Part shown: positions 27,938 to 35,244 of the stretch, piece by piece | Position numbering within the stretch: the first letter of the stretch is position 1 | Layout of the letters: the number at the start of each line of letters is the position of its first letter | Origin: Oscillospiraceae bacterium | Lineage (GTDB): Bacteria > Bacillota > Clostridia > Oscillospirales > Ruminococcaceae | Length of the DNA: 36,313 nucleotides | NCBI GenBank assembly: GCA_024697725.1 | Contig: JAILFE010000222.1 | Location: 1-36,313 of the forward strand | Direction of reading: 5' to 3' | The notes under the pieces: model-generated | The model's database searches: none | The model's input: the letters and a program-made list of their open reading frames with translations, nothing else | What the model was told of the DNA's origin: nothing | Program-made: the position numbers and the translations under genes

Positions 27938-28471
27938 ATGGCAGATCTGAAAAAATACGCCGGCAGGATATTGGGAAACAAAAAAATGATCGCAGTCATA
28001 TGCTGTATGGCTGCGGTCATTTTGTGGCTGATATTATGGAAGATATTTCCTCTTGAATTCTATTCGCTGTTCTTCGCTTCGGCGGTCGGGAGCAATATCC
28101 TGCTCGTTATGCTGATACTTGTGATATCTATCCCATGTACGGTGCTTTTTTCAAAGCTCATGCGCACCGGGATACCGGTGAAGCGTTCCATAGCGGCGGA
28201 TATACCGTGCATGATCGCGGCAGCGTTCGTATTCTCGGTATTCCGCTATACGGGTGTGCATTGGGTCGTTCTTGCCGAGGCAGTACATTTTGCGGCGGTA
28301 TTCTTTATTATGAGGAGCGCTCTGTCAAAGGAGCAGGATGCAAAGCGGAAGAATGCTCAGGATATTCTGACAGCAGTATTTGCTCTTTTCCGCACGATGA
28401 TATCCGACAGCGCTTTCCTGATGATAATGTTCGCAATGGCAAAAGCGGCTTATGAATATACAGACGGATGA
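27938..28471 (+). CDS. Hypothetical integral membrane protein
   Basis: I do not recognise this 177-residue protein. It has four predicted transmembrane helices, about residues 18-37, 41-70, 85-105 and 108-128, with a more polar C-terminal 45 residues that includes another hydrophobic stretch (SAFLMIMFAMAKAAYEY). The ATG at 27938 has GGGAG 7 nt upstream, and the gene follows the lipid kinase by 36 nt. Its stop codon lies only 3 nt from that of the convergent fusion gene, with no terminator between. Confidence 0.7.
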   Translation: MADLKKYAGRILGNKKMIAVICCMAAVILWLILWKIFPLEFYSLFFASAVGSNILLVMLILVISIPCTVLFSKLMRTGIPVKRSIAADIPCMIAAAFVFSVFRYTGVHWVVLAEAVHFAAVFFIMRSALSKEQDAKRKNAQDILTAVFALFRTMISDSAFLMIMFAMAKAAYEYTDG

Positions 28472-28474
28472 TCA

Positions 28475-29725
28475 TTATTCTGTGATCTTTATCATTACTG
28501 CCTGCGAGCCGTTTTCCTCCCAGCGCTCGATAAAATCATCGCGGCTGTAAGGGACTATGTTCTTTTTATCATTGCAGTCCATGAAATAGTATGCTTTCGG
28601 GTCATACCCGACAAGGACGAGCGTGTGGGAATTGCCGAGCCATTTTATCTTTCTTCTCGTTCCGATAGCTGTCCATTCCGAGCGTTCGGAATACCTGTAG
28701 AAATCCATGTTCTTTGATGCCCATACGATCACAGGAACGCCTGAATCTATGAGCTTTTCCATATCTGCGGAGTTGAGGTCTTCAAGGCATATCGCCTTGT
28801 ATTTGTCCGAGACTCCGTTTTTTTCAAAATAAACGTTCAGTGTATTTCCGATGACGGGAGCATAACAGCCGTAACCGTCTTTATGCGGATCACCTGCAAA
28901 GCATATGTACGGGTCGGGACCGTAGTTCGTGCCGTCATTATCGGTGTAGAATTTTGTGCTCGAACGCATATAATGATCGGCAAGGTCGGTCTTGTCCGCA
29001 TCAAAGCCGAGATAGTTCAGCACCGCCGCCGCACAGGTTATCTCACAGCCTGTCGGGAGTTCGGGATACTGTGATATCACCGGGAAATCCTTTATGAGCT
29101 TCTTGCTGAAAAAGACCTCCGGAGACGAATAGCCTTGACCAAGGTCTTCGACGGTATATCCGTCATAATGCTGATGCGGGTCAGCGTTGAGTCTTGTATA
29201 GCGTTCGCGTTCGTTTATCCTGTTGAGGTATATCTCATCGGAGCATATCCTGTCGGTGAAGTATGTGCATACGAGCAGTGCCGCTCCGAGTATCACGGAG
29301 ATAGTTCTGAACACTTTATAACTCCTTTCACAGAGCAAGCTGCACGGCAGGAGCTCTGTCAGCGGATAAAGCTCCGGCTCGCCGCTTTCGTTTTCGAGTA
29401 TGACAATGATCCCCGGAGAAAACTCCGCGAGCACCTGACGGCATATCCCGCATGGGAAGGTATATCCGCCCTTTGTGTTGTTCACTATCGCTATCGCGGC
29501 AAAACTGCGGCAGCCCTCCGATACTGCTTTGAATACAGCAGTCCTCTCGGCGCAGTTAGTCGCGCCGTAGGATGCATTCTCGATATTGCAGCCGGTGAAT
29601 ATCCTGCCGTCTTCCGTGAGCAGGGCAGCCCCTACCCTGAAGTCGGAATATGGCGCATATGCATATTCTGCGGCTTCGTGAGCTGCTTTCAGGAGTTCCT
29701 TTGCATTGATATCAGAATTTGTCAT
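28475..29725 (-). CDS. Cytidine deaminase fused in frame to a membrane-anchored C39-like peptidase
   Basis: The single 416-codon frame holds two complete modules. Residues 1-137 are a full cytidine deaminase with zinc motifs NCAERTAVF and PCGICRQV, ending LLPCSLL where the family normally ends. Residues about 138-416 are a separate exported module: a hydrophobic anchor (FRTISVILGAALLVCTYF) and a papain-like C39-type domain with catalytic Cys in LPTGCEIT and His in GNSHTLVLVGYD. At the junction AAAGGAG lies 7 nt before a GTG (29314), an independent start that would yield the peptidase alone as a 279-residue protein. So this may be two genes joined by loss of the cdd stop, a genuine fusion, or a sequencing frameshift. 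A cytoplasmic deaminase joined to an outside peptidase is otherwise not known to me. Confidence 0.8.
   Translation of the reverse strand: MTNSDINAKELLKAAHEAAEYAYAPYSDFRVGAALLTEDGRIFTGCNIENASYGATNCAERTAVFKAVSEGCRSFAAIAIVNNTKGGYTFPCGICRQVLAEFSPGIIVILENESGEPELYPLTELLPCSLLCERSYKVFRTISVILGAALLVCTYFTDRICSDEIYLNRINERERYTRLNADPHQHYDGYTVEDLGQGYSSPEVFFSKKLIKDFPVISQYPELPTGCEITCAAAVLNYLGFDADKTDLADHYMRSSTKFYTDNDGTNYGPDPYICFAGDPHKDGYGCYAPVIGNTLNVYFEKNGVSDKYKAICLEDLNSADMEKLIDSGVPVIVWASKNMDFYRYSERSEWTAIGTRRKIKWLGNSHTLVLVGYDPKAYYFMDCNDKKNIVPYSRDDFIERWEENGSQAVMIKITE
29312..29328 (-). promoter_or_regulatory. Internal ribosome binding site and GTG start of the C39-like module
   Basis: On the minus strand AAAGGAG (29322-29328) is followed after 7 nt by GTG at 29314, which begins an ideal membrane anchor. 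A TGA in the -1 frame overlaps this site (in tgTGAaagg), exactly where the deaminase would be expected to stop. Confidence 0.7.
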
Positions 29726-29804: not shown

Positions 29805-30051
29805 TAATGTCTGCTCAAAAAGCCGAAAAGTACGTAATAGTGCAACTTCGAAGTGCTTTTCGGCTTTTTGAATGCAAGATTTTTGAGCTGATAAGCCCAA
29901 AAATCTTGCACTATTGCTGACCGTAGGTCAGCAATAAGCAGACATTAATCAGGTAGTGCGCTGCAAATCTTTGATTTGCAGCAGCAGAAGCGGCAGTAAG
30001 CAGCCGCTTCTGCCAATAACCGCCCGTAGGGCGGTTATTGAGCACGCACTA
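29805..30051. repeat. Six-hairpin structured repeat element
   Basis: Six perfect inverted repeats follow one another: 29817-29869 (14-bp arms), 29874-29909 (12), 29912-29936 (11, loop gta), 29961-29981 (9, loop ttt), 29984-30013 (11) and 30014-30040 (12, loop gta). The first three are enclosed by TAATGTCTGCT (29805-29815) and AGCAGACATTA (29937-29947); the last three by TAGTGCG (29954-29960) and CGCACTA (30045-30051). Two domains therefore share the same plan of a closing stem around three hairpins. Pieces reappear at 33121-33168 and, inverted, at 33273-33311. It stands between the cdd fusion start and the ABC module, outside any ORF. Confidence 0.8.
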
Positions 30052-30225
30052 TTTACCGATAAACTCATATAAATATTGAAGCTATATTCCCCAAAATGCA
30101 TTATAAATTTCTATAGGTAATTAATTGCCGAAGTAATAAGATCTGTGCAGAACTGCATAATATCAATATATCATGCAGTTAAGGAATTGTCAAGCTCAGT
30201 GTCAGTATAATCACAGCCTGATCTG

Positions 30226-33037: not shown

Positions 33038-33120
33038 TAGTGTAATGCGTATCCTGCCGGAATCGATGCATAAGATGCCGCACTTGTGAGTGTCTGTGCA
33101 AGAGCATCGGTATGCTTATA

Positions 33121-33168
33121 GCCGCTTCTGCCAATAACTGCCCGCAGAGTGGTTATTGAGCACGAACT
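33121..33168. repeat. Partial copy of the six-hairpin element, same orientation
   Basis: Forty-three of 48 positions match 30003-30050, the last part of the six-hairpin element. The copy has only the right arm of its fifth hairpin and a decayed sixth hairpin (CAATAAC/GTTATTG retained), so it looks like a decaying fragment. Confidence 0.75.
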
Positions 33169-33203
33169 GATTATAGCTGTAGTTCTGCGGAAAGGTCAAT
33201 TGC

Positions 33204-33246
33204 CGGAAAAGATAAAGAGCTGTTCTCCGGCTTGAGAACAGCTCTT
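33204..33246 (-). terminator. Intrinsic terminator of the GGDEF gene
   Basis: Perfect 13-bp arms AAGAGCTGTTCTC/GAGAACAGCTCTT (6-nt loop) are followed on the minus strand by TATCTTTTCC. It lies about 105 nt past the stop of the GGDEF gene. Confidence 0.8.
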
Positions 33247-33259
33247 ATATACTGCGTGT

Positions 33260-33311
33260 CCAATAACTGCCCGCAAATCAAAGATTTGCAGCGCACTATC
33301 TGATTAATGTC
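33260..33311. repeat. Chimeric, inverted fragment of the six-hairpin element
   Basis: The first 16 nt (CCAATAACTGCCCGCA) repeat 33131-33146 exactly. From 33273 to 33311 the sequence matches the reverse complement of 29941-29979 at 38 of 39 positions. So two modules have been joined in a new order and one of them inverted. Confidence 0.75.
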
Positions 33312-33351: not shown

Positions 33352-35244
33352 CTATTTCCGTCTTCCGGGCTTTGAAAGCTTTTGCTCGTACATATGTGAA
33401 TCGCTTATTTTCAGAAGATCCTCCAGCCGTCCTGAAGAATCCGTTTCAGTCATGTATGTACCGTAGCTGAAATCTATTTTATAGGGCTTCGGGTTATTCT
33501 CATTGAATTCCCTGATGAATTCCTTCATGCGTGAGATAAAGCGTGCAAGCTGAGTTTCGGAATAATCCACCGCAAAAATATAAAATTCATCGCCGCCTGC
33601 CCTGCCGGCTGTCTCGCCGGAATCACAGCATTTCATTATTATTTCCGCAGCTGATTTTATCGCACGGTCGCCTTCATAATGTCCGAATTGATCGTTGATA
33701 AATTTAAGTCCGTCCATATCAATGACCATGGTGCAGACAGTTTTCTTTTCAATAAGAGAAGCGAGCGATTCTCTCGATTTGTTGTCAAATCCCCGGCGGT
33801 TGTACATACCTGTGAGATCGTCCTTGATGCTGAGGTTTTCGAGCTTTCTGATAAGCTTGCGGATACGGTCGCTTTTTAGGAGATTTTCAAGTGTTATCCC
33901 GAGATTCAAGAGCCAGACAGTGTAGAATTCGTTGAAAATGTCCTTGCCGGACATTTCTATAACAGAATATCCGAAAACACATTCCGCAAAATTTACGCTC
34001 ATTATGTAATAGAAATGACATCTGTCAGAGTTGGATTCCGGAATAAGATAGGTACTGTCAAAATTCCGTCTGCATCCTGTGTATTCATTCTTTTTGTCTA
34101 TCCAGATCGCAGGGATGAATTTTCCGGAGGGAAATGTGAAGTCGCTGTTACAGGAGGGATGTTTTTCGTAGTCTGTATGCATCATCAGAAAGAAGGCGTT
34201 GAATTCACCGAAATTCACCGAGTTTTCAGAAAAGACTGTCTCCATACTGCGTACAGTTTCAACCTTGTTCAGCTTCAGCATGGATGCTTCCGCATCGTAG
34301 ATATTGAAGCCGTAGGATCGTGTCAAGTCATATACACGGTTGAGGTTTTCGGCTTCTTTGCGGTAATTGAGCGGAACGCATCCGCAGGACTGGTCAAATA
34401 CAGGACGGGGACGGATAATAAGATCCGGTTCGGTATTTTGTTTTCCGTCAGCGAGATCAACAAGTAGCCGGAGAGTTTTTCTTGCGATATCAAGCCTTTC
34501 GCGTGTCGCAGAGGTGATGTGCGGAAGAAATTCTTTTCCCTCTATAGTTCCGTCAAATCCCGATATTGCAATATCCTCCGGTATTCTGATATCGCGGTTT
34601 TTCAGTGCAATGGAAAGAGAGATCGCCATATAATCATTTGCGCATACTATTGCTTCGGGGCGGTCGGGCAGCGAAAGAAAATAATCCGCAGCTTCATTGC
34701 CCTTGTTGAACCAGAAATCGCCCTCGAAGATCCCTGCGCCGTCCTTCGGCATCCCGCGTTCGGACATGACCTTCCTGAATTCTGTGAGTCTTGCCTGTGC
34801 ATCCGGATGAGTCAGATAGCCTGACATAAATCCTATTTTTGTAAAATGATGATGATCTATAAAATGTTCGATGAGCGCTCGTATCCCGCCTGTTTCGTCA
34901 AAATCGATATTGTAAAATCCGTCAACATGACTGCTTATGGAAATGACCGCACATTTTGCGGTGCGCAGCTTGCGTATGACCTTGTCCGCCATGCCTTCGA
35001 CGTTGTAACCCTCGCCGTCAAAGACGATACCGTCATACTGAGAAAGATCGACATATTCATACATATCAAATTCAGAATCGCCGTACAGCGGATTCTTGTA
35101 GCCTATTTTTCCGAGAGAGTTGAAATAGTGCATATCAAGGTCAAGTTCCTCTGCGGCAATGTTGAAGCAGCGGCAAAGATTGCTGCGGTATCTGCTTGTG
35201 AAGCTGCATCCGAATACTGCTATCCTTTTTCGTTTACTGCTCAT
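33352..35244 (-). CDS. LacI-type ligand-binding domain fused to GGDEF (probable diguanylate cyclase)
   Basis: This is a 630-residue soluble signalling protein. Residues about 5-290 resemble the periplasmic-binding-like sensor domain of LacI regulators (ARLTEFRKVMSERG, VCANDYMAISLSIALK, IPEDIAISGFDG) but there is no helix-turn-helix and no signal peptide, so sensing is cytoplasmic. A middle region (about 295-465) is of unknown fold. The C-terminal GGDEF domain (about 475-625) has DDLTGMYNRRGF and an intact AGGDEF active motif; the RxxD inhibitory site is absent (DSGE). It would make cyclic di-GMP in response to a small ligand. A strong promoter (35297-35325) drives it divergently from the GNAT gene. 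Confidence 0.88.
   Translation of the reverse strand: MSSKRKRIAVFGCSFTSRYRSNLCRCFNIAAEELDLDMHYFNSLGKIGYKNPLYGDSEFDMYEYVDLSQYDGIVFDGEGYNVEGMADKVIRKLRTAKCAVISISSHVDGFYNIDFDETGGIRALIEHFIDHHHFTKIGFMSGYLTHPDAQARLTEFRKVMSERGMPKDGAGIFEGDFWFNKGNEAADYFLSLPDRPEAIVCANDYMAISLSIALKNRDIRIPEDIAISGFDGTIEGKEFLPHITSATRERLDIARKTLRLLVDLADGKQNTEPDLIIRPRPVFDQSCGCVPLNYRKEAENLNRVYDLTRSYGFNIYDAEASMLKLNKVETVRSMETVFSENSVNFGEFNAFFLMMHTDYEKHPSCNSDFTFPSGKFIPAIWIDKKNEYTGCRRNFDSTYLIPESNSDRCHFYYIMSVNFAECVFGYSVIEMSGKDIFNEFYTVWLLNLGITLENLLKSDRIRKLIRKLENLSIKDDLTGMYNRRGFDNKSRESLASLIEKKTVCTMVIDMDGLKFINDQFGHYEGDRAIKSAAEIIMKCCDSGETAGRAGGDEFYIFAVDYSETQLARFISRMKEFIREFNENNPKPYKIDFSYGTYMTETDSSGRLEDLLKISDSHMYEQKLSKPGRRK

Follow-up and report, generated by a model that had tools for sequence, protein, structure and literature searches.

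In a 36,313-nucleotide stretch of DNA from an Oscillospiraceae bacterium (GCA_024697725.1, contig JAILFE010000222.1; hereafter the window), a single open frame on the minus strand leads from a cytidine deaminase into a membrane anchor and a C39-like peptidase. Is this a gene for a protein with two functions, or are two ordinary genes being read as one? The frame begins with an ATG at 29725 and closes with a stop codon ending at 28475 (29725..28475), comprising 416 codons (416 aa) and no internal stop, which bears out the first-pass annotation in having described one frame that joins a deaminase to an anchor and a peptidase.

Two domains in one open frame

Homology to cytidine deaminases extends to about residue 130 of the fused protein (cdd; 29331..29725, minus strand). 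Pfam family dCMP_cyt_deam_1 (PF00383) is found at residues 8–109, the NCBIfam models TIGR01354 and PRK05578.1 are matched at 138.8 bits (cut-off 113.65) and 147.5 bits (cut-off 74), and B. subtilis Cdd (1jtk) is matched with an E-value of 5.7e-36. TIGR01354 denotes the tetrameric type of cytidine deaminase. With that type (TIGR01354, B. subtilis 1jtk) the window protein shares its sequence, its length up to the LLP motif and the zinc motifs CAE (C58-A59-E60) and PCxxC (P91-C92..C95), both of which are invariant in the 103 distinct homologues that we aligned, drawn from related genomes and a genome collection. It differs from the tetrameric enzymes at the C-terminus, where Leu replaces the terminal Phe and the stop codon lies in another frame.

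This difference is marked across the family. The column of Leu130 (TTG), which corresponds to Phe125 in B. subtilis Cdd, holds Phe in 102 of the 103 homologues and Ile in one, and in all 101 homologues whose stop codon lies inside the available sequence the protein ends 0 to 22 residues past this column. Of the ten homologues closest to the window protein in sequence, seven end in Phe-x-Leu-stop, as do both same-genus deaminases available (L140 and L141). A C-terminal Phe after LLPxx, followed by a stop, is absent from the present frame, which carries Leu130 and reads through. The deaminase had been described as complete at 137 residues; its zinc motifs are indeed kept, but homology ends near residue 130, and the C-terminal Phe has become Leu.

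The second half is a predicted membrane-anchored peptidase of 279 aa, counted from a GTG at codon 138 (28475..29314, minus strand). Peptidase_C39_2 (PF13529) is found at residues 213–383 with 80.4 bits, against a Pfam gathering cut-off of 24, and an E-value of 2.5e-22, and the solved C39-like peptidase 3erv_A is matched with an E-value of 3e-16. The residues C227, H367 and D383 (Cys-His-Asp) are each present in 31 of 31 orthologues, and the most hydrophobic stretch of the whole protein, 17 residues from residue 138 onward, lies just past the join. The window peptidase has in common with its C39_2 relatives (PF13529; 3erv) the domain, the Cys-His-Asp residues, the N-terminal hydrophobic anchor and a conserved convergent neighbour; in contrast to them, it has Cdd fused in front, and its patatin neighbour is replaced by cdd.

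The peptidase is a separate gene in all 31 of these orthologues, which come from other genomes examined. Their own starts lie within about one residue of the GTG (29312..29314, minus strand), and we therefore take this codon to be the normal start of the peptidase. Purine-rich, Shine-Dalgarno-like sites precede many of the orthologue starts, and in the window the GTG is preceded by the putative Shine-Dalgarno sequence AAAGGAG (29322..29328, minus strand) with a spacer of 7 nt (TTATAAA). That the peptidase may be made separately from the internal GTG, as first proposed, is well supported by the orthologue starts.

The junction and a candidate one-base loss

On the minus strand the junction reads CTG CCG TGC AGC TTG CTC TGT GAA AGG AGT TAT AAA GTG. 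It contains every element to which the first-pass annotation had pointed: AAAGGAG, the 7-nt spacer, the in-frame GTG and, in the -1 frame, a TGA (29328..29330, minus strand) that shares one base with AAAGGAG. This TGA had been said to sit where the deaminase should end, and its position is the one expected of a stop codon in the family rather than that of a chance stop; as the original end of cdd it would give the same tail length (Phe plus two residues) and the same final Leu as in the nearest homologues. If codon 130 had one more base after its TT, the frame would read Phe-Ala-Leu-TGA (or Leu-Ala-Leu-TGA) and end at this very codon. One indel thus explains why the Phe and the stop are missing and why a correctly spaced stop is found in another frame. 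Because the Phe and the stop that the family leads one to expect are absent from the present frame, we infer a net loss of one base at codons 130–131 (TTG CTC; 29333..29338, minus strand), the first of which is the conserved Phe column of the alignment. We consider it very probable that two ordinary operon genes, cdd and a gene for a C39-like peptidase, were joined by such a loss near codon 130. Among the meanings offered earlier for the junction, a recent stop loss or a base error gains support in this form from the Phe column and the family's stop positions.

The ancestral arrangement would have been a lineage-specific operon with cdd directly upstream of the gene for the membrane-anchored peptidase. 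Before the loss, cdd would have ended in ...LLP-C-S-F-A-L-stop, its TGA overlapping the peptidase Shine-Dalgarno sequence AAAGGAG, and the peptidase would have started at the GTG at 29314. A stop codon overlapping the Shine-Dalgarno sequence of the next gene is a common layout, and a translationally coupled one. With one base gone at about codon 130, the frame would have shifted, both the Phe and the stop would have been removed, and translation would have run eight codons onward into the peptidase, in the peptidase's own frame. Operon pairs joined by a single junction indel have in common with this locus a stop overlapping the next Shine-Dalgarno sequence and the expected stop in another frame, and we found no differences from them.

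Could the stop have been lost by substitution instead? Codon 132, now TGT, is a single substitution away from TGA, and had it once been TGA the deaminase would have ended in the present frame as ...P-C-S-L-L-stop. Such a tail is one residue shorter and lacks the usual F-x-L ending. The change of Phe to Leu would, in addition, have to be a second, independent event, whereas one indel explains everything. Since it requires two events and fits the family tail less well, we judge substitution alone less likely than the loss of a base, and very improbable in itself.

Programmed frameshifting had also been suggested, with a -1 shift to the TGA giving the deaminase alone and the fusion being made otherwise. 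The -1-frame TGA does lie close by and is followed by a Shine-Dalgarno-like sequence. However, between codon 119 and the TGA there is neither an X XXY YYZ heptamer nor a long homopolymer (codons 119–133 were read by eye), and a Shine-Dalgarno-like sequence was recognised only downstream of the would-be slip site, whereas the stimulators of dnaX- and prfB-type frameshifts lie upstream of theirs. The -1 product would end in V/Q-L-A-L, still without the Phe, and programmed frameshifting was seen in no homologue. With no slippery site and with the Shine-Dalgarno-like sequence on the wrong side, we rejected this explanation, which has next to no chance of being correct.

A more far-reaching alternative is a real, fixed and selected fusion that supplies a membrane-tethered deaminase–peptidase along with free peptidase from the internal GTG. 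The frame is open from end to end and the active-site residues are intact in both halves; the predicted topology is self-consistent, with the deaminase inside, then the anchor, and the peptidase outside; and the source genome has no close deaminase match besides cdd. Yet the fusion occurs in none of the 31 peptidase orthologues, no deaminase homologue continues beyond the Phe column for more than 22 residues, and the near-invariant Phe has been lost, a loss that a conserved fusion does not call for. The fused gene was to be doubted if relatives kept a separate cdd stop codon, and every homologue examined, from other species, has one. Searching the literature, we found no paper on a Cdd–C39 fusion. 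A selected fusion is therefore improbable. If anything still less probable is a fused frame that is both real and maintained in this species, in which the peptidase anchor holds a cytosolic nucleoside deaminase at the membrane's inner face while free peptidase is made from the GTG. Neither the fusion nor the gene pair is found in any other genome examined, and the ideas of a dual-product gene and of tethering a cytosolic enzyme, both raised by the first-pass annotation, are not supported. Altogether, nothing suggests an evolved dual-function protein, and the fused frame most likely results from one missing base.

Gene neighbourhood and a structured repeat upstream of cdd

The window genome is the only one, among the loci examined, to place cdd beside this peptidase. 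A common arrangement in relatives is a convergent ORF of about 175 aa on one side of the peptidase and a divergent gene for a patatin-like phospholipase on the other. The convergent neighbour is kept in the window as a 177-aa ORF (27938..28471, plus strand) that has no Pfam or NCBIfam match; this ORF and the peptidase are neighbours across the family, and a functional link between them is possible. The usual place of the patatin gene is occupied in the window by cdd and a repeat; the source genome has its best patatin match (38% identity) on another contig. The cdd–peptidase pair appears to have arisen by a rearrangement in this lineage alone. Elsewhere in the window, at 33352–35244, a periplasmic-binding-protein-like (LacI-type) domain is joined to a GGDEF diguanylate cyclase domain in one protein.

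The repeat, directly upstream of cdd (29805..30055, unstranded), is an intergenic element of about 250 bp. In the source genome it occupies 29 places of 140 bp or more, 28 of them besides the one in the window; most show 97–99% identity, and many of the copies are at contig ends. About 30 diverged copies (70–77% identity) are carried by a genus mate, G002, and searches of G001, G003 and 22 other relatives yielded none. The predicted fold consists of two adjacent four-way, cloverleaf-like junctions with a minimum free energy of -146.7 kcal/mol (z -15.7). When copies from the source genome and G002 are aligned, 15 of 53 predicted pairs show compensatory changes on both sides. The window has no Rfam match. 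Fragments of the same repeat family (matches of 49 and 39 bp) were also noted at 33120–33311. The repeat may represent a new family of structured mobile repeats, and this covarying, two-cloverleaf element beside cdd is of more interest than the fused frame itself.

Assembly error or real deletion, and what follows

We put the odds at about even that the organism itself lacks the base, as against an error confined to the draft assembly. The source assembly is a draft of 457 contigs and 3.39 Mb. We set about 517 kb of its readable sequence, some stretches being masked as N, against proteins of relatives; about 78 kb of this were comparable, and found one other convincing frameshift, an apparent one-base loss in a G run of a conserved gene (L214, near 4008; 3955–4081 on contig 58 of the source assembly, G000). 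The same survey of a genus mate gave no frameshift in 98 kb, counts that are too small to call the source assembly error-prone. Two further survey matches (L157 and L196) were discarded, being judged antisense shadow frames. Long homopolymers are the commonest place for assembly errors, and the putative loss at the junction lies outside any of them, which counts against a one-base loss. We also considered a misassembly mediated by the repeat next to cdd, and rejected it: the repeat is about 470 bp from the junction and the junction itself lies in unique sequence, so that such an event cannot explain the fused frame. Two pattern scans of viral contigs turned up no second copy of the junction.

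The consequences for the deaminase can be gauged from mutants of a related enzyme, in a study that treated the homologous Phe as conserved and near the substrate pocket (PMC9897663). Changing this residue to Ala or Trp in CDA_F14 raised KM about twofold, and removing residues 127–130 lowered kcat/KM (PMC9897663). Since the change of Phe raises KM only about twofold, its loss could be tolerated. A real deletion could likewise be tolerable, which speaks to its effect and not to its occurrence.

The locus carries a caution, in that one base at the junction of an operon can be enough to produce a near-perfect-looking fusion with intact domains. A family-wide alignment of C-termini, here with a near-invariant Phe and a characteristic stop position, exposes a case of this kind. 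If the deletion is real, the organism would have a deaminase with a changed C-terminal Phe and eight linker codons leading into the N-terminal anchor of the peptidase. By analogy with CDA_F14, this deaminase, tethered by the N-in/C-out anchor of the peptidase, would probably still be active, and the peptidase's own start could still be used. The locus would then offer a clean snapshot of how one base could turn a tightly spaced operon into a fusion gene.
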